From assembly GCF_000519265.1 (NCBI RefSeq), contig NZ_KI912608.1, positions 3,009,313 through 3,073,312 of the forward strand: a stretch of DNA of 64,000 bases. The letters are read 5' to 3'. Origin of the DNA: Desulfonatronum lacustre DSM 10312. Its GTDB lineage: Bacteria; Desulfobacterota; Desulfovibrionia; Desulfovibrionales; Desulfonatronaceae. Shown here in pieces: positions 24,265 to 32,899 of this stretch; position 1 is the stretch's first letter, and each line of letters opens with the position of its first letter. The translations under genes were made by a program, and so were the position numbers. The notes beneath the pieces were generated by a model, which ran no database searches, was not told where the DNA came from, and worked only from the letters and a program-made list of their open reading frames with translations.

Positions 24265-25047
24265 TCACACAAACGGCATGAGCAGCAGCTTGCGGAGTTT
24301 TTGGAAGTTCGCGTCGCGGAAAATGTTCAGGCCGATGGGCATGTGTTCGTGGCCCTGGGCGGGCTGGTCCTGGTAGGTTCGAAACAGGCGGTCCCACCAG
24401 GGGAAGTTGAACCCGAAGTTCCTGTTCGCTTCCTTCATGTTCGTGGAGTGGTGAACTCGGTGCATGTCCGGCGTGACCACCAGCCGCCGCAGCCGGGCGT
24501 CCGCGGCCAGGGGCAGACGGATGTTGGAGTGATTGAACATGGAGACGCCGTTAAGCATGATTTCAAAGACGATCACCGCCAGGGCCGGTGGCCCCAGGAC
24601 AAGTACAACCAGCAACTTGATGCCCATGGACAGGATGTATTCCAGGGGGTGAAAGCGCACCCCGGTGGTCAGGTCGAAGACCGTGTCCGCGTGGTGCACT
24701 CTATGGATGCGCCACAGGGGTATCCAATAGTGCAAGGCCCGGTGCTGGAAATAGATGACCAGGTCAAGCAGCAGCAGGCCCGCGATGAACTGCCCGGGAT
24801 AGGGGAGGGGCACGTTGTTCAGCAGCCCCCAGCCCCGCTCCGTCGCCAGCAGGGCCAGCCCCACGGGCAGGACCGGAAACAGGATGCGCAGCAGCAGCAA
24901 GGAGCCCGCGACCAGGCCGAGGTTGCCCACCCAGCGGATCATCCGTTGGGGAGGCGTTCGCCGACGAGGAAAGAGGTGCTCGGCGATCCCGAAGAGCAGC
25001 AAAGCGCCCGCGAAAAACGCCAAACGCCACCAGTGTTCGTGTTCCAT
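24265..25047 (-). CDS. sterol desaturase / fatty acid hydroxylase-family protein
   Basis: A 260-residue membrane protein starting at MEHEHWWRLAFF; ATG 25047 has GGAGAA at the right spacing, and the frame extension to 25173 overlaps the upstream gene. Three His clusters for a di-iron site are present: HRALH, HRVHH and a second HRVHH, plus HSN. The fold has about four helices. Family members use O2 to hydroxylate lipids, so its presence in an anaerobe is notable. It is the last gene of the selenoprotein operon, 47 nt after the previous stop, so it may share its regulation. The substrate is unknown. Confidence 0.85.
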   Translation of the reverse strand: MEHEHWWRLAFFAGALLLFGIAEHLFPRRRTPPQRMIRWVGNLGLVAGSLLLLRILFPVLPVGLALLATERGWGLLNNVPLPYPGQFIAGLLLLDLVIYFQHRALHYWIPLWRIHRVHHADTVFDLTTGVRFHPLEYILSMGIKLLVVLVLGPPALAVIVFEIMLNGVSMFNHSNIRLPLAADARLRRLVVTPDMHRVHHSTNMKEANRNFGFNFPWWDRLFRTYQDQPAQGHEHMPIGLNIFRDANFQKLRKLLLMPFV

Positions 25048-25094
25048 GCGCTTCTCCGCGATGCCCGGTTGATGGCCTTTCTCCGAACCGCCGG

Positions 25095-25409
25095 TCAGGA
25101 GAAAATGCGGCTCAGGAAGCCTTTTTTCACCTTTTCCGGTTCCGGCAGGCCCAGGTGTCGGCAGATGCAACACTCCAGCTCGTGCTCATCCACGTCCTTG
25201 CCCTCGACCACGATCTCGTCGTTGACCATTACAGCCGGCGCCACGGGCAGATCCAAGGCAAAATACTCGTCAGTGGAGTACTCCGCGATGGGCTTGGAAA
25301 TGGTCTCCACCTCAATGGCGTATTTCTCGCCCAGACCGGGCGAGATTTTCAGGAAATGCTTTCAAGGTTTGCCTCGTGGTTCGTTCAGAAAAAACCGTAC
25401 CAGGACCAT
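25095..25409 (-). CDS. thioredoxin-like selenoprotein A (UGA = Sec16)
   Basis: The frame from ATG 25409 reads MVLVRFFLNEPRGKP, then UGA (25364-25362), then KHFLKISPGLGEKYAIEVE and on to a stop at 25095, giving 104 residues with Sec at 16. AAGGAGG precedes the ATG. The protein is a close paralog of selenoprotein B immediately upstream, with the UGA at the same residue. The downstream half (DLPVAPAVMVNDEIVVEGKDVDEHELECCICRHL) resembles the cis-Pro loop region of thioredoxin-like folds. The sequence just after Sec lacks a CxxC partner; two Cys pairs occur near the C terminus. A hairpin with a GGUCU loop follows the UGA. Function unknown; a redox role is inferred. Confidence 0.82.
25325..25345 (-). 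promoter_or_regulatory. candidate bacterial SECIS hairpin of selenoprotein A
   Basis: An 8-bp perfect stem (TCTCGCCC / GGGCGAGA on the minus strand) closes a GGTCT loop. The loop begins 24 nt after UGA 25364-25362. A GGUCU apical loop is the classic SelB-binding feature of E. coli fdhF-type SECIS elements. Confidence 0.75.
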
Positions 25410-25700
25410 TCAATGGCCTCCTTGGATTGTGGGGTCCGCGTCCAATTGATCCCGCACCGCCGCGAAAATCTGACCTTCCTCCATAAAACCGCCGCTGATG
25501 AGCACGTGGTCGTTGATCATGATTCCGGGAGCCACCGGCAGGCCGAGACTTTTGTACGCCTCGGTGTGAAACTCCTCGCGGGGTTTGGAGACGATCTCCG
25601 TTTCCACGCCGTTAAGCCGGCCCAACCTGGGCAGCACGGACAGATAGTGCTGTCAGGTCTTGCCCCGGGGTTCATTCAGAAAAAAACGCACCTTGACCAT
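25410..25700 (-). CDS. thioredoxin-like selenoprotein B (UGA = Sec16)
   Basis: ATG 25700 lies 7 nt after GGGAGG and 2 nt beyond the stop of the rhodanese-DsbD gene. The frame reads MVKVRFFLNEPRGKT, UGA (25655-25653), QHYLSVLPRLGRLNGVETE and ends at 25410, one base before gene A starts: 96 residues with Sec at 16. The segment before UGA matches gene A almost residue for residue, which shows that it is coding. GLPVAPGIMINDHVLISGGFMEEGQIFAAV gives the cis-Pro loop and last helix of a thioredoxin-like fold. No other Cys is present, so the selenol would act alone or with a partner protein. Family not recognised. Confidence 0.83.
25620..25632 (-). promoter_or_regulatory. candidate bacterial SECIS hairpin of selenoprotein B
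   Basis: A short stem GCCC/GGGC (minus strand) closes an AGGTT loop containing GGU. The loop starts 24 nt after UGA 25655-25653, the same spacing as in gene A. Confidence 0.55.
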
Positions 25701-25702
25701 GA

Positions 25703-27457
25703 TCATTCCTCCCGTGAATCGGTGTTGAGCAGTTGATCCATGCGCCCTGCGAAAGCCTCAGGGGCGAGAAAGTCCACCAGCCGCAGGTCCGGGCGCTCTC
25801 GGCCCCGGGCGTCGAGAAAGACGATGGTCGGCACGCCGCGGACCCGGTACTCGCGCAACAGCCGCTCATGCAGCGGATTGCCGCCCCGGGTCACGTCGAT
25901 CTTGATCATGACCATGTTCCGAGCGCGTTCGACCACGTCCGGATGGTGGAAGGTCACGGCTTCCAGCTCCCGACACGGCGCGCACCAGGTGGCGGAGAAG
26001 TCGATGATGACCGGCTTGTCCTGTTCCCGGGCCTGTTCCAGCAGTCTTTCGGAATAGGGCTGCCACTCCACCCCGGCGCCGCGTACGGCCCAGGAACCCA
26101 CCAGGAGCACGGCCAGAAGCAGCCCGGCCAGGCCCACGCCGTTCTTGATCCAGGGGAAAGCTCGAAAGGTAGCCGTGGAGCGGTCCACCCAGGCCAGATG
26201 CACGGCCGCGGCCATGGCCACCCCGACCATCAGGAACAGGCCCCAGGGCTCGCCCAGCAGCGGGCGGACGAAATAGGCGGCCATGCCCACCAGGACCCAG
26301 CCCATCAGCTTGCGCACCCAGATCATCCATTCCCCGGAGCGGGGCAAACGCTGGAGGTTGCCGGAAAACACGGCCAGCACGAACAGCGGGATGCCCAGAC
26401 CAAGACTGAGGGTGAAAAAGACCAGAAAGCCGATCCAGGGGCTGCCCATGGTCGCCACCCAGGTCAGCAGACCCAGGACGAACGGCCCGATGCACGGCGC
26501 GGCCACCACGCCCAAAGTCAGGCCCATGAACAGGGTGCCCACGTACCCGGCCCGGGATTTGGACGCGGCCCGGGTCAGGGCCGCGGGCATGCGCAGCTCC
26601 CAGAAGCCGAACAGGCTCATGGCAAAGGCCACCAAAACCAGGGCGATGACCCCAAGGACCAGAGGATTCTGGAGCAGCCCGCCCATCAAGCCCCCGGTCA
26701 TGGCCGCCACCGTGCCCAGGATGGAATTGGTCAGGGCCAGTCCGCCGATGTACAGCAGCCCGTGGGCGATCAGCCCGGCCTTGCCCTGCTCGTCCCGCCC
26801 GGCGAAATAGGACACGGTGATGGGAATCAGCGGATAGACGCAAGGCGTCAAATTCAGGGCCATGCCGCCGAAAAAGATGCCCAGCAGGGTCCAGACCATG
26901 GCCCAGCCGGACAAGGGGCCCGGCGCTTCCGGAGCAAACGGGGCCTCGGCGTGGCCGTCGTCGAACTCTGGCAGGGTGGCTGCCGTGGGATACCCTTTCT
27001 CCTCCCACTCCCGAAAACCCAACGGATCGCGATAAACGTTCACATAACCCAAGGAGACGGCCACCCGGGCCGCCGAGTCGCTGCGGACTCAGGCCAGACC
27101 GTCTCAGTAAAAGACGATGGTCCGCTCCTTGTCCTCGCCCAGGACGGCCCGCAGGTCGTCTTTCTTGCTCCATCTGGCCCACCAGGTGGGTTCCATGGAA
27201 AAGACCACGGCCCCTTCCATGTGCCCGGGGGCGAACTCCCATTCCTGGCGGGTGTCCACCAGCAGCAGGTCCGGGTCCCTCTGGTACAGCTCCCAAAGCT
27301 CGTCCGTGGTGATCACGCCGTACCCGCCGCGCTCGGCCTCGGCCAGGACGTCGTCCCAGCCGGCGTCTTGCGGCGTCACGGCCCGGCTGGTCAGCCACAG
27401 GGCGCTTCCGGCGGCGATCACGAAAAGAAGAAGTCCGAGTACGATGCGCTTCGACAT
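25703..27457 (-). CDS. rhodanese-DsbD-thioredoxin fusion selenoprotein with two Sec
   Basis: The frame from ATG 27457 (site AAAGGAGG) continues through UGA at 27106-27104 and 27091-27089 to a stop at 25703, giving 584 residues. Residues 1-24 form a signal anchor. A rhodanese domain follows (about 40-165) whose catalytic loop reads TIVFY-U118-DGLA-U123-VRSDSAARVAVSLGY; related rhodaneses carry Cys at both positions. About eight helices of the DsbD/CcdA type follow (190-455), with redox Cys in LTPCVYP (206) and AAPCIGP (322). The C-terminal thioredoxin domain has WCAPC (492, 495). Both soluble domains should be periplasmic. I infer electron flow from cytoplasmic thioredoxin through the membrane domain and WCAPC to the selenol rhodanese. 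Confidence 0.88.
27057..27073 (-). promoter_or_regulatory. candidate bacterial SECIS hairpin of the rhodanese fusion
   Basis: A CGGCC/GGCCG stem (plus a G-U pair) closes a CGGGT loop on the minus strand. The loop starts about 21 nt after the second UGA (27091-27089) and 36 nt after the first, so one element may have to serve both. Confidence 0.5.
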
Positions 27458-27486: not shown

Positions 27487-27948
27487 CTACTTGATCCGGC
27501 CTTCATGCCGCAGCTTTGCCAGGAGGAAGTCGGCCCCGGAGCGGGAAAGCCCTACGGCTTCGGCCACCTGGTCCGCTTCCAGAGTGCCCGAACGGGCCAT
27601 GTGCAGCACTTCCTCCTCCAGCTCTTCCAGCCAGTTCTCGAACAGCACCAGGATTTCCGGGTGAGCGATGGCCATCAGCTGCCGGGAGCGGGCCACCTTG
27701 TCCACAAGGCTTTGGCACATTTTTGTTGGATCGACACCTTCGTCCATGCATTCGGCCAGTCAGAGGTGGACCATGCTGCTGACCTTGTCTTCCCCCTGTT
27801 CCGTGCCTTGCCCCCCGGTCATGCCGACGATGATTGTCAGCCGCTGTTCGTCGGAAAGCAGGGGAAAGACCTCCGCGGCCGCGTCGGCCACGACCCGGGC
27901 CGCCTCTTCCGGAGGCATGGTGCGTAGGATGTTGCGAAAGTTGTTCAT
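27487..27948 (-). CDS. unknown selenoprotein with Sec63-x3-Cys67
   Basis: The frame from ATG 27948 runs MNNFRNILRTMPPEEAARV to SSMVHL, UGA (27762-27760), LAECMDEGVDPTKMC and on to 27487, giving 153 residues with Sec63 and Cys67 four residues apart; another Cys is at 78. The first 60 residues are helical. The last 80 include a predicted helix pair (PEILVLFENWLEELEEEVLHMA) and a winged-helix-like end (LEADQVAEAVGLSRSGADFLLAKLRHEG). Without readthrough the locus would be two unexplained fragments in one frame. I do not recognise the family. It lies 18 nt after the ArsR gene and 29 nt before the fusion gene, clearly in one operon. Confidence 0.78.
27727..27746 (-). promoter_or_regulatory. candidate bacterial SECIS hairpin of the unknown selenoprotein
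   Basis: TGGA-CGA and TCG-a-TCCA (minus strand) form a 7-bp stem with one bulged A around an AGGTG loop holding GGU. The loop begins about 20 nt after UGA 27762-27760. Confidence 0.6.
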
Positions 27949-27966: not shown

Positions 27967-28293
27967 TCAAAAGGATTTTTTCTCGGCAAGCAGAGCCTGG
28001 GCCAACGCGCTCAAGGTCCGCAGGATGAACAGGATTTCCTCGGAAGCCAGGGTGTAGAAGATGAAGGGCCCGCGCCGCTCCACCCGGACCAGCAGGGCCC
28101 GCTTGAGTTCCTTCAGGTGATGCGAGACCAGGGGTTGGGAAAGGTCCAGGACCTCGGCGATCTGGTTCACGGACTGCTCTCCTTGACCCAGGTGACACAA
28201 AATCCGCAGCCGGTTGGCGTCGGACAGCACCTTGGACAGAAAGGCCGCGTCGGCGAGTTGCTCTCGGGGAATGCAGGCAGGCTTCGTCATCAT
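27967..28293 (-). CDS. ArsR-family winged-helix regulator
   Basis: A 108-residue protein with the ArsR fold: LSKVLSDANRLRILCHLGQGEQSVNQIAEVLDLSQPLVSHHLKELKRALLVRVERRGPFIFYTL. The recognition helix is QPLVSHHLKELK. A Cys sits in the RILCHL helix, as in persulfide-sensing BigR/SqrR and in ArsR-type arsenic sensors, and another is at residue 7; the second conserved Cys of SqrR is not seen. It heads the selenoprotein operon, 18 nt before the next gene, and is the likely repressor. The inducer might be sulfane sulfur, a metalloid or selenium; this is inference. Confidence 0.92.
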   Translation of the reverse strand: MMTKPACIPREQLADAAFLSKVLSDANRLRILCHLGQGEQSVNQIAEVLDLSQPLVSHHLKELKRALLVRVERRGPFIFYTLASEEILFILRTLSALAQALLAEKKSF

Positions 28294-28541: not shown

Positions 28542-28764
28542 GACGCTTATACTCGGATGAACCGGTAGTTACGAACAAACATAATCGCAATTTCCGTCCG
28601 GGATTTTTTCCCGTCTCCCGGGATTTTCTTCGTCTAGAATTAGGAGATTCCCCTACAGACAAGACCAACCTACATGCTATTGAGTTGGTATGCTTTTCAC
28701 GCCCAGGCGCACGGCTGCGGTCAATTATCAGTTCCACCCCAACATCCTTATCAAGGAGGTCGGC

Positions 28765-30081
28765 ATGAAGCGCAAGATTACCGTACTGGTTATGGCGGGT
28801 TTTTGGATAGCGGCCGTGGGGCTTTTCGCCTGCGGCAGGGAGCAGGCCGTGGATGTTCGCGAGGTCAAGGCCCAGCCCAAGGAATTCGTCGGATCGGACA
28901 CCTGTCGCAACTGTCACCTGGAACACTACGACTCCTGGAGAATGACCCTGCACAGTCGGATGCTCATCGACGTGCGGGAGAACCCTTACGCCATCCTGGC
29001 GGATATGAACCCCGACCTGATCCGGGCCGACCTGGAAAAGGTCAAGGACCGGCTCAAGGTTCCGGTGGAGGACGTCTACATCCCGACCAAGGATGAAATC
29101 CTCTACACCATCGGCACGCAGTGGAAACAACGCTACATCGTCCAGAAAGACGGCAAATATCATGTGGCGCCGGTCCAGTACAATATCGCCACCAAACGCT
29201 GGGTCAACTATTACGACGACGCCTGGGACAAGCGGGACTGGCTGGTGCGCTGCGGCGGTTGCCACGCCACGGGCGTGGACCTGGACAACTACACGTTCGC
29301 CGAGACATCCATCGGCTGCGAGGCCTGCCACGGCCCCGGCTCGCAACATACGGCTCTTCCACGCACTGCTTTGTTCGAGAAACGGGAAACCATCATCAAC
29401 CCGGCCAAGCTCACCGCGGGCATCGCCGTGCAGATCTGCGGCTCCTGCCACACCCGTGGCAATGCCAAGCATGAAACGTACCCTGAAGCCGGCTGGCCCG
29501 TGGGGTTCACCCCGGGCATGGTCATGGAGCCGATTTATGAAAGCTCCTACGACAAGGCGGACATGCGGCGTCTTTACCCGGACTACGCTTCCCGCTCACA
29601 CCACCAGCAGTATATAGACTGGATGCAGTCCGAGCATGCCGTGCAGGGCGTGACCTGCACCTCCTGTCACTCCGTACACCGTCTGGGTATTTCCCCCACC
29701 AGGTTCCAGACCAAGGAAGCCGGGTCCAGCCAGTGTCTGAGCTGCCATACCATGGTTAACGCCAATCGGGCCCATTCCATCCATTCCTTCGCCAACTGCC
29801 TGGGCTGTCACATGCCGCGCATCGCCAGCACGGCCGAGCCCAACGACATCCGCAGCCACACCTTCAACGCCAGGGCGCCCATGGACACCATTGACGACCC
29901 GAACCTGCCCAATTCCTGTCAGATTTGCCACTATCACAAGGACGACGATCTGGCCGAGTTGCAGCGTAAGTATGAAATCCTGACCCAGTTGCCACAGCCC
30001 CAAGGAATGATGATTCCCGCGGTAACGTACGATACATTCACGGAACGTCCCGGAACCGCTCCCGTGGCCAGCCCGGAATAA
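28765..30081 (+). CDS. octahaem c-type cytochrome lipoprotein
   Basis: A 438-residue exported protein starting at MKRKITVLVMAG; ATG 28765 follows AAGGAGG. A lipobox (VGLFAC) suggests a lipid anchor after cleavage near residue 22. Eight CXXCH motifs are present in order: CRNCH, CGGCH, CEACH, CGSCH, CTSCH, CLSCH, CLGCH and CQICH. The layout, with CEACHGPG early and a spread second half, resembles cytochrome c-554-like multihaem proteins. The two genes downstream encode a trihaem cytochrome and a cytochrome b, so this is probably the periplasmic end of a quinol-linked electron-transfer complex. The electron acceptor is not known. Confidence 0.92.
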   Translation: MKRKITVLVMAGFWIAAVGLFACGREQAVDVREVKAQPKEFVGSDTCRNCHLEHYDSWRMTLHSRMLIDVRENPYAILADMNPDLIRADLEKVKDRLKVPVEDVYIPTKDEILYTIGTQWKQRYIVQKDGKYHVAPVQYNIATKRWVNYYDDAWDKRDWLVRCGGCHATGVDLDNYTFAETSIGCEACHGPGSQHTALPRTALFEKRETIINPAKLTAGIAVQICGSCHTRGNAKHETYPEAGWPVGFTPGMVMEPIYESSYDKADMRRLYPDYASRSHHQQYIDWMQSEHAVQGVTCTSCHSVHRLGISPTRFQTKEAGSSQCLSCHTMVNANRAHSIHSFANCLGCHMPRIASTAEPNDIRSHTFNARAPMDTIDDPNLPNSCQICHYHKDDDLAELQRKYEILTQLPQPQGMMIPAVTYDTFTERPGTAPVASPE

Positions 30082-30117
30082 TGTTCAGGGGAGATTCAAA
30101 CCAACAAGGGGGATGTC

Positions 30118-30792
30118 ATGATCATCAAAAAAGCGACGCCCCTGCTCTTCATTCTGATGCTGCTCCTGCCCGAACCGGTGTTCGGGCAGGAGGAGATGGC
30201 CTCCCGGTACTACCGCTATCGCAGCACGGAAATGAGTACGGGCGTTTACGAGGAGTACGAAGTCCGACCCCGGTCCATGGGCCGGGTCGACGCCGTCGGG
30301 GAAGTTCAGGGCCGAGGCCTCAGCAGGATCGACGAAGAGGAAAGCCGGGCCTTGAACCGGATGTTTCTGAACGACGCGCACCAGGGGCTGCGGTTTTACG
30401 AACAACGCCGCTGCGTGTCCTGCCATGTCGAGGAGGCGCGCAACAACCGCCACTACGTCCGGCACGGCATCACCTGTCGCCAGTGCCACGGCGAGGAGCC
30501 CATCGCCAGCAGCAACCACTTTTTTTCCCGGTTGAACAACATTCGCCAGCATACCCACGTCTGCGCCAAATGCCACGAAGGAGCCTCCGCCTCCTTTGCC
30601 CTGTACAAGGTGCACGAGCCCAATCCGGCCATGATCAGCACCGCGGACGTTCTTCCGCTGCTGTTTTATGCCTTCTGGATCATGATCGCCGTGGCCGTGG
30701 GCACCTTTGCCCTGTTCCTGCCGCACACCTTCTTGTGGGGCGTGCGGGAACTGTTCATCAAGAAAGCGAGGTCCGACGATGAGCAGCACTGA
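30118..30792 (+). CDS. membrane-anchored trihaem c-type cytochrome
   Basis: A 224-residue protein. A signal peptide (MIIKKATPLLFILMLLLPEPVFG) leads to a periplasmic domain with three CXXCH sites: CVSCH, CRQCH and CAKCH. A C-terminal helix (VLPLLFYAFWIMIAVAVGTFALFLP, about 178-202) anchors it, with a short basic tail inside. It lies 36 nt after the octahaem gene and overlaps the cytochrome b start by 14 nt. It may bridge haem b in the membrane and the octahaem protein. Confidence 0.9.
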   Translation: MIIKKATPLLFILMLLLPEPVFGQEEMASRYYRYRSTEMSTGVYEEYEVRPRSMGRVDAVGEVQGRGLSRIDEEESRALNRMFLNDAHQGLRFYEQRRCVSCHVEEARNNRHYVRHGITCRQCHGEEPIASSNHFFSRLNNIRQHTHVCAKCHEGASASFALYKVHEPNPAMISTADVLPLLFYAFWIMIAVAVGTFALFLPHTFLWGVRELFIKKARSDDEQH

Positions 30793-31621
30793 GAGCAGCA
30801 CTAACGCCAAAATCCGGATCAAGCGGTTCACCGCGACGCAACGATTGTTTCACTTGGTGCTCATGGTCACCTTCCTGGTCCAGTCCGCCACCGGGCTGGC
30901 CAGGATGTACCACGAGACGGCCTGGGGGCAGGGTCTCGGGAATATTTTCGGCGGATTCGAGGCCTCCCTGACCGTGCACATCTACGTGGGCATCTTCATG
31001 GTCTGCGCGTTCGTGGTCCATGTCCTCTATGCACTGCTCAACATGGTCATCAACCGAACCGGCCTGTTCGGGCCGGATTCCCTGCTGCCCCGGTTCGCCG
31101 ACCTGAAGCAGGCCGGGCAGCACGTGGGCTGGATTCTCGGTCTTTCCAGGCATCCGCCGTTGGATCGCTGGGGATACTGGGAAAAATTCGACTATTGGGC
31201 TGTTTTCTGGGGTATGGTCATCCTGGGCGGGACCGGCCTGCTCCTGGCCTATCCCCTGGCGTCCAGCAACTACATGCCCGGCTGGGGGCTGAACGTGGCC
31301 TTCTGGGTGCACCGCATCGAGGCCATCCTGGCCATGGCCCATATCTTCGTCATCCACTTCTTCATCGCCCATCTGCGGCGCAGCAACTTCCCCATGGACC
31401 GGACCATCTTCCAGGGCAGCGCGGACCTGCGCGTCGCCGCGCACGAACGTCCGGCCTGGTTGGCCCGGCTGAAGGAATCCGGCAAGCTGGACCAGATGAT
31501 CGTGGGGGAGGCTCCGGTCTACAAACGGGCCGTCTTCCTGATCATCGGCTTCGCCGCCGTGGCCGCCGGCGTGTACATGCTCATCGGCGGGCTGGTTCAC
31601 GCGCCCCTGATTACGTGGTGA
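30779..31621 (+). CDS. membrane cytochrome b subunit
   Basis: A 280-residue protein starting at MSSTESSTNAKIRIKRFTATQRLFHL; ATG 30779 follows GAGG and overlaps the previous gene. Four helices with His residues suited to haem b are seen: RLFHLVLMVTFLVQSATGLA, LTVHIYVGIFMVCAFVVHVLYAL, WAVFWGMVILGGTGLLLA with WVHRIEAILAMAHIFVIHFFIAHL. A fifth helix ends the protein. It resembles the b-type subunits of formate dehydrogenase/hydrogenase and the octahaem-type complexes of sulfate reducers. It probably oxidises or reduces menaquinol for the two cytochromes c. Confidence 0.88.
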   Translation: MSSTESSTNAKIRIKRFTATQRLFHLVLMVTFLVQSATGLARMYHETAWGQGLGNIFGGFEASLTVHIYVGIFMVCAFVVHVLYALLNMVINRTGLFGPDSLLPRFADLKQAGQHVGWILGLSRHPPLDRWGYWEKFDYWAVFWGMVILGGTGLLLAYPLASSNYMPGWGLNVAFWVHRIEAILAMAHIFVIHFFIAHLRRSNFPMDRTIFQGSADLRVAAHERPAWLARLKESGKLDQMIVGEAPVYKRAVFLIIGFAAVAAGVYMLIGGLVHAPLITW

Positions 31622-31717: not shown

Positions 31718-32899
31718 TCACTGATCCACTTCACTGATCAGGGCGCCGTAGCCCTGCTCTTCCATCTCTTCGATTGGGATGAACCTCAGCGCCGCGGAGT
31801 TCATGCAATAACGCAGGCCGGTTGGAGCCGGACCATCGGCGAATACGTGTCCCAGATGAGAGTCCGCGTAGCGGCTGCGGATTTCGGTGCGAACCGAAAA
31901 AAAGCCTCTGTCTTCTTTCTCCACCACCCAATCCGGGTTGATAGGTTTGGTAAAGCTGGGCCAGCCGGTGCCGGAGTCATACTTGTCGCGGGATGAGAAC
32001 AGCGGTTCGCCGGATACAATATCCACATAGATACCCGGCCGCTTTTCATCATTGTATGCGTTCTTAAAGGGGGGCTCCGTACCGTCTTTTTGGGTGACGT
32101 TGTACTGCACCTTGGTCAGCCGAGCCCTGAGTACCCTGTCGTCCGGTTTTTCAAAGGTAGCGGGGTTGAATCCCTCCACCTGGATTTGCCGACGGTTGGA
32201 TTCGCCACGATCAGCCTGCCCGGGGCCATCACCGATTTGCGGACGATACCGGGAGTAATCTACTTCCATATCTTCTCCCCAGACGGATTCGATGAATTGG
32301 TAGCGTCCCGAGTTGAAGGTATAATACTTGTAGCGCAGCGGATTTTTCTTGGAGTAATCCTGGTGGTACTCCTCGGCCTCGTAGAAGACTTTGAAAGGGA
32401 CGATCTCGATCACGACCGGAGCGGCATAGCGGCCGGACTCCTCCAGTGCCTTCACTGAGGCTTCCGCGGCCAGTTTCTGCTCCTGGTCATGATAGAAAAT
32501 CGCCGGGCGATATTGCCTGCCGCGGTCCACGTACTGGCCTTCGGCATCCGTGGGGTTGGCGGTCCGCCACAGCGCCTGAAGCAGTCCTTCGTAGGTGATC
32601 ACCGTTGGGTCATAATAGACCTGTACGACCTCGGTATGGCCGGTGCGACCACCCGCGACCTCCTTGTAGGTCGGGTTTTTCTCTTCGCCTCCGCTGTAAC
32701 CGGATACCGCCTCGACCACGCCGGGGACTTTTTCAAAGGCTTCCTCCACACACCAGAAGCACCCACCAGCGAAGGTGGCAAGAGCCAGATCACGATCGAC
32801 CGGGGCATACTTCGAGTCCATGTCGCTGGAAGCGCTCAGTTGGAATCCCGCCAATGCCATGACAGCCGCTGTGAACATCAGGAACAGATACCGTTTCAT
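31718..32899 (-). CDS. msrAB: exported bifunctional methionine sulfoxide reductase MsrA-MsrB
   Basis: A 393-residue fusion with a signal peptide ([24 protein letters not shown]). The MsrA domain starts at [15 protein letters not shown], with the catalytic Cys in GCFWC and EYHQDY. The MsrB domain contains [20 protein letters not shown] and the catalytic [11 protein letters not shown]. The usual CxxC zinc pairs of MsrB are absent. The protein repairs oxidised Met of periplasmic proteins, both S and R forms. A two-component system lies just upstream on the same strand, 81 nt away, and may induce it, as reported for other periplasmic Msr systems. Confidence 0.95.

Follow-up and report, generated by a model that had tools for sequence, protein, structure and literature searches.

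On the minus strand of the 64,000-nucleotide stretch of DNA analyzed here (the window), the tsoB gene runs from position 27457 to position 25703, and its ATG is preceded, 5 nt upstream, by a strong Shine-Dalgarno sequence (AAGGAGG) read directly from the sequence. With TGA translated as selenocysteine (Sec), the product comprises 584 residues followed by a TGA stop and contains two internal UGA codons, UGA1 (27104..27106, Sec118), at the rhodanese catalytic position, and UGA2 (27089..27091, Sec123), within a two-residue loop insertion, both inside the segment FY-U-DGLA-U-VRS. A first-pass annotation of this DNA had given the coordinates 25703-27457 correctly, without the strand, and the single frame that it described, joining this loop to helices with LTPC and AAPC motifs and to a WCAPC thioredoxin, is borne out by the translation and by Pfam. 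The product matches the NCBIfam model NF045694 ('rhodanese/DsbD fusion-like selenoprotein TsoB') with 971.4 bits against a cut-off of 805, over residues 9-576 and model positions 6-571 of 572. All TsoB membership traits are present, namely a full-length score above the cut-off, the UxxxxU loop and the TsoA, TsoC and TsoR neighbors, and, judged by its sequence, the gene is a member of this already named family with nothing of substance setting it apart. A 2026 review tabulates TsoA, TsoB (UxxxxU, two Sec) and TsoC (PMC13188914) and, according to the same review, the Tso selenoproteins are to be credited to Haft and Tolstoy (2025, mSystems 10:e0141724). The literature searched, to which that original description did not belong, contained no stated function for Tso selenoproteins.

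The operon reads TsoR-TsoA-TsoB-TsoC-TsoC, all on the minus strand, and the order TsoR-TsoA-TsoB-TsoC is preserved in most loci. The tsoR gene (27967..28293; NF045707, 132.2 bits, cut-off 115) encodes an ArsR-type regulator, and tsoA (27487..27948; NF045695, 200.6 bits, cut-off 170) an LULAxC selenoprotein with Sec63. The first tsoC copy (25410..25706; NF045708, 103 bits, cut-off 45), encoding an NEPxGxxU selenoprotein with Sec18, has its start overlapping the tsoB stop (ATGA), and is followed by a second copy with Sec16 (25095..25409; NF045708, 141.9 bits, cut-off 45). The view that TsoB is a 'self-contained' reductase, as first annotated, becomes doubtful because the gene sits in a conserved operon alongside a regulator and members of two other selenoprotein families. 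The commonest additional gene, found downstream and on the same strand in 21 of the 61 loci with enough sequence, encodes a VTT-domain membrane protein (PF09335), and genes for DsrE-family, GcvH-related and thioredoxin proteins lie near a few TsoB copies. No gene for a periplasmic partner or for a substrate was found to recur in the Tso operons, and no peroxidase or metal gene did so either.

In TsoA, Sec63, C67 and C78 are invariant, and a fold search with its modeled C-terminal half returned only weak, non-significant winged-helix matches (E 0.13 and above). No conserved Cys was found in TsoR, and a role for this protein as a dithiol persulfide sensor was rejected since it lacks a conserved Cys pair; that TsoA might act as a selenium-based redox co-regulator of TsoR is a guess. 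Around the operon, the second tsoC is followed on its own strand by a fatty-acid-hydroxylase-like gene that matches OlsE weakly (24265-25173, minus), and similar genes occur downstream of tsoB in four other loci (L042, L084, L090 and L107). Pointing away from tsoR on the plus strand are two multihaem cytochromes c and a cytochrome b561-type protein (28690-31621), and an MsrA-MsrB fusion (peptide methionine sulfoxide reductase; 31718-32899, minus) is located near the operon yet outside it.

Four parts can be recognized in TsoB, all encoded on the minus strand: an N-terminal membrane helix (residues 2-24, 27386..27454), taken as a signal anchor from the AlphaFold2 model, hydropathy and charges; a rhodanese domain (residues 50-153, 26999..27310; PF00581, E 9.5e-13, 48.9 bits against a cut-off of 22.2); a DsbD-type membrane domain (residues 189-400, 26258..26893; PF02683, DsbD_TM, E 3.4e-42) with redox cysteines C206 (LTPC) and C322 (AAPC); and a thioredoxin or gamma domain (residues 464-550, 25808..26068; PF13899, Thioredoxin_7) with C492 and C495 in WCAPC. 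Pfam and the AlphaFold2 model (mean pLDDT 84, the rhodanese being modeled with high confidence) together set the limits of these parts at residues 2-24, about 34-157, 185-459 and 465-582. Foldseek matches of the model include DsbD gamma (1uc7, E 5.7e-8), the rhodanese 6mxv (3.2e-5) and the polysulfide-sulfur transferase Sud (1qxn, 2.7e-4). Eleven K/R residues fall in the inside loops and none in the three short outside loops, a positive-inside pattern that puts the N-terminus inside and therefore both the rhodanese and the thioredoxin outside, so that the two likely share the same, non-cytoplasmic side. Family alignment and structure modeling, as proposed in the first-pass annotation, thus recovered both the DsbD-type and the rhodanese parts, and neither a cytoplasmic rhodanese nor the lack of a sulfurtransferase fold, which it had named as findings that would speak against its reading, was encountered.

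Scored against the NCBIfam DsbD model (NF001419, PRK00293), TsoB reaches 257.5 bits over residues 187-576, below the cut-off of 330. The DsbD_N domain (PF11412) was not found in TsoB by Pfam and was found in sister DsbD proteins (L140, L142 and L016), indicating that the rhodanese occupies the place of the alpha domain, which agrees with the earlier proposal that a selenol rhodanese had replaced DsbD alpha. Also, a tree built on the membrane-thioredoxin part separates TsoB from a group of DsbD proteins with an alpha-type N-terminus; the tree is midpoint-rooted and leaves the branching order among them unsettled.

Relatives were collected from a scan of the genomes of 84,980 species, which yielded 80 TsoB loci, nearly all titled deltaproteobacteria or Desulfobacterota and one titled Nitrospirae. 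Within the phylum of the window, 22 of 395 sampled genomes encode a TsoB above the cut-off. UGA occurs at both positions in all 102 pattern-matched loci and in eight UGA-type relatives that the pattern missed, both counts including some genomes fetched twice; coincidence can thus be dismissed as the origin of the two codons. Two Sec in one loop are rare among proteins generally, as first noted, but they are the rule within the TsoB family. Invariant in 49 diverse relatives are C206, C322, C492, C495, Sec118 and Sec123, both Sec being Cys in one homologue (L147:4026-5762, FYCAGPDCVRS), whose frame is open throughout and which lacks Tso neighbors. The in-frame UGA codons thus align with Cys of a homologue, the pattern expected of a selenoprotein. 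The genome that carries this Cys/Cys homologue also encodes the two-Sec form, and no further Cys/Cys copies were found in the family of that genome. Sec machinery is present in the genome of the window, with a tRNA-Sec of 82 bits and a SelB of 366 bits (cut-off 242). A third Sec in the thioredoxin motif was considered and rejected, the short reads at some loci being a start-codon artefact and WCxPC being intact in the loci checked.

Several loci deviate or stand alone. One tsoB gene (L117:8001-9605) keeps both UGA codons and has a short deletion just past the loop (RSD joined to PLGFPEW) with loss of hairpin 2 (see below), reflecting either gene decay or a fault in the assembly. A congeneric genome carries, downstream of its intact operon, a broken duplicate of a tsoB C-terminal piece (L012; G003:C1:347464-347771). 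The genome of the window itself carries a second rhodanese gene with one in-frame TGA (L003; G000:C1:432145-432531, minus), near a TGA-free two-rhodanese gene, and this is probably another rhodanese selenoprotein.

Two SECIS-like hairpins follow the UGA codons. Hairpin 1 (27075..27090, minus; GAGUC-CGCAGC-GACUC) begins 13 nt after UGA1, and hairpin 2 (27057..27073, minus; GCGGCC-CGGGU-GGCCGU) 15 nt after UGA2, which places them at +16..+31 and +33..+49 when counted from the T of UGA1. Among 71 TsoB genes of under 88 % protein identity, the pairs of hairpin 1 are complete in 61 (19.2 +/- 4.0 expected, z 10.6; imperfect in the other ten) and those of hairpin 2 in 67 (10.0 +/- 2.7 expected, z 21.4), the expectation coming from 200 draws in which synonymous codons were redrawn from each gene's own usage and the z values ignoring shared ancestry. 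Hairpin conservation is thus far beyond what the protein and codon use explain. Fourfold-degenerate sites of the same genes have a mean entropy of 1.55 bits, and the lowest three of 176 sites (codons 130, 132 and 124) are where both hairpins are located; since synonymous sites elsewhere in the gene vary strongly, ancestry alone is unlikely to be the cause of this conservation. The pair 35-47 is seen as GC, AT, CG and TG across TsoB genes, and when offsets from -330 to +180 were scanned, a perfect stem of 5-6 bp in >80 % of genes occurred only at these two hairpins.

Both hairpins fit the bSECIS model, which calls for a loop of 3-9 nt with G in the first two positions, a stem of 4-16 bp and a UGA-to-loop distance of 16-37 nt (PMC13188914). 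Hairpin 1 has a 6-nt loop (CGCAGC), 5 bp and 18 nt from UGA1 to the loop; hairpin 2 has a 5-nt loop (CGGGU), 6 bp and 21 nt from UGA2 to the loop. Each UGA therefore appears to have its own SECIS hairpin, although hairpin 2, which also lies 36 nt from UGA1, may have a shared role. Folded freely, the entire 62-nt stretch takes a form other than the two hairpins; with a ribosome at UGA1, part of this stretch would be occupied. An Rfam search of the window gave no match at gathering thresholds.

These features bear on whether the UGA codons are read through at all. Plain gene calling splits the gene into ORFs of 117 and 453 aa, as would be expected if translation stopped at the first UGA and an internal GTG (27064) started an ordinary DsbD devoid of the rhodanese. 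However, both UGA codons are kept in every UGA-type locus read, with coding conserved on both sides, no Shine-Dalgarno sequence was seen before that GTG, and Sec machinery is present. Termination at the first UGA, which the first-pass annotation had listed as a finding that would undo its reading, is rejected by the conserved UGA pair, the open Cys/Cys homologue and the conserved hairpins after each UGA, and we consider it extremely improbable. TsoB is thus almost certainly a genuine membrane protein in which a two-Sec rhodanese is fused to a DsbD-type relay, and this architecture is well supported. Of the initial interpretation, the architecture and topology hold, while the novelty that it implied does not, the TsoB family having already been named (NF045694).

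Alignment with 6mxv and 1qxn places Sec118 at the catalytic Cys position, and the two-residue insertion brings in Sec123. The loop is therefore of UX6R form, as opposed to the CX4R of typical rhodaneses, and its Arg is replaced by Val in two loci (L013 and L014), so that sulfurtransferase chemistry should not be assumed for TsoB. ArsR-rhodanese fusions with the motif YCRGPYCVL, and the same loop register as TsoB, are encoded near nine TsoB copies, and TsoA is absent from eight of the nine loci (Fisher p = 0.001, without correction for ancestry). A literature search on CRGPYC rhodaneses, or on ArsR-rhodanese proteins together with selenocysteine, gave nothing useful.

DsbD passes electrons outward from cytoplasmic thioredoxin to periplasmic partners. 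The beta and gamma parts of TsoB, with all redox cysteines conserved, suggest by analogy that electrons probably flow outward through this protein as well. We propose, with moderate confidence, that TsoB is a DsbD-type relay in which a diselenol rhodanese has replaced periplasmic alpha and reduces a sulfane-sulfur or other chalcogen substrate. Each of the two Sec residues would be inserted at a UGA served by a separate hairpin. Cytoplasmic thioredoxin, or the thioredoxin-like TsoC of the operon, would reduce the membrane pair C206/C322, which would in turn reduce the periplasmic WCAPC (C492/C495) and, through it, the U118-U123 pair of the rhodanese. U118 could then attack a chalcogen substrate of the sulfane-sulfur or a similar kind (persulfide, polysulfide or thiosulfate, and perhaps Se or Te species), and U123 could resolve the intermediate, so that the chalcogen would leave in reduced form and the relay would re-reduce the resulting diselenide.

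In this scheme the domain order, conserved redox residues, Sec positions, hairpins, operon and likely topology are computed results. The chalcogen substrate proposed in the first-pass annotation is plausible, and assignment of the substrate to this class is offered tentatively. It is favored by the match of the rhodanese to Sud (1qxn), by the loop register shared with the ArsR-rhodanese proteins and by the DsrE-family and sulfur-carrier-type genes near a few copies; on the other hand, the UX6R loop, the variable Arg and the want of a recurring substrate gene argue against it, and TsoR, having no Cys pair, does not point to persulfide.

The rhodanese stands exactly where sister DsbD proteins have their alpha domain (C-x5-C), U-x4-U being a similar pair, and the genome holds one more DsbD-like gene, free of TGA, so that TsoB need not do the general job. 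TsoB could accordingly be a specialized DsbD whose diselenol rhodanese hands electrons to one periplasmic protein partner (disulfide or selenenylsulfide) with no chalcogen chemistry; yet a rhodanese fold whose catalytic position carries a selenol suggests chemistry on small molecules, and no periplasmic protein gene recurs in the Tso operon, making this unlikely.

Selenols frequently serve in the peroxide defence of anaerobes. U118 might accordingly react with peroxide or an electrophilic metal or metalloid and U123 resolve the product, which would make TsoB a selenol peroxidase or a protein that detoxifies oxidants, metals or metalloids. TsoR belongs to the ArsR type, often metal-responsive, and the VTT-domain gene that follows in 21 of 61 loci recalls the selenite link reported for a DedA-family protein (PMC8679861). 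Still, TsoR has no conserved Cys ligands, the operon has no recurring peroxidase or metal gene and the MsrAB fusion of the window lies outside it, and we regard this role, too, as doubtful.

Building on the preferred reading of TsoB as a chalcogen-reducing relay, a broader and speculative picture, which we think improbable as a whole, is that Tso is a transmembrane chalcogen-handling system whose enzyme and sensor use one loop type. TsoB, with its diselenol rhodanese, would reduce sulfane-sulfur or selenium species outside, drawing its power from the cytoplasm, while the ArsR-rhodanese, or TsoR with TsoA as redox co-regulator, would read the same species inside; the tandem SECIS hairpins, with UGA2 at the foot of hairpin 1, would allow two Sec five residues apart to be decoded in turn. 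As far as checked, the paired hairpins, the Cys/Cys homologue, the replacement of alpha as seen against sister DsbD proteins and the link to ArsR-rhodanese regulators are new. The hairpins offer a natural case of a bacterial mRNA that encodes two Sec close together, of use in studies of SelB and in the engineering of multi-Sec proteins. Also, the alpha replacement, topology, redox residues, natural Cys/Cys version and same-register regulator suggest assays, making Tso function testable.

Compared with known systems, TsoB has in common with DsbD an eight-helix membrane domain, two redox Cys and a C-terminal periplasmic thioredoxin of the gamma fold (1uc7), and differs from it in having a two-Sec rhodanese instead of alpha (DsbD_N). 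With 6mxv and Sud (1qxn) it shares the rhodanese fold and a catalytic position aligned to Sec118 (the rhodanese part matching 1qxn in both sequence and fold), but these are single-domain proteins, whereas the TsoB loop is two residues longer, bears a second Sec and is fused to a membrane relay. The ArsR-rhodanese proteins (YCRGPYC) have the same C/U-x4-C/U spacing in a lengthened loop and are found in Tso operons, yet they are predicted DNA-binding regulators with Cys where TsoB has Sec. From the NF045694 family, finally, TsoB does not depart, having the same full length, the UxxxxU loop with two Sec and an operon with TsoA, TsoC and TsoR.
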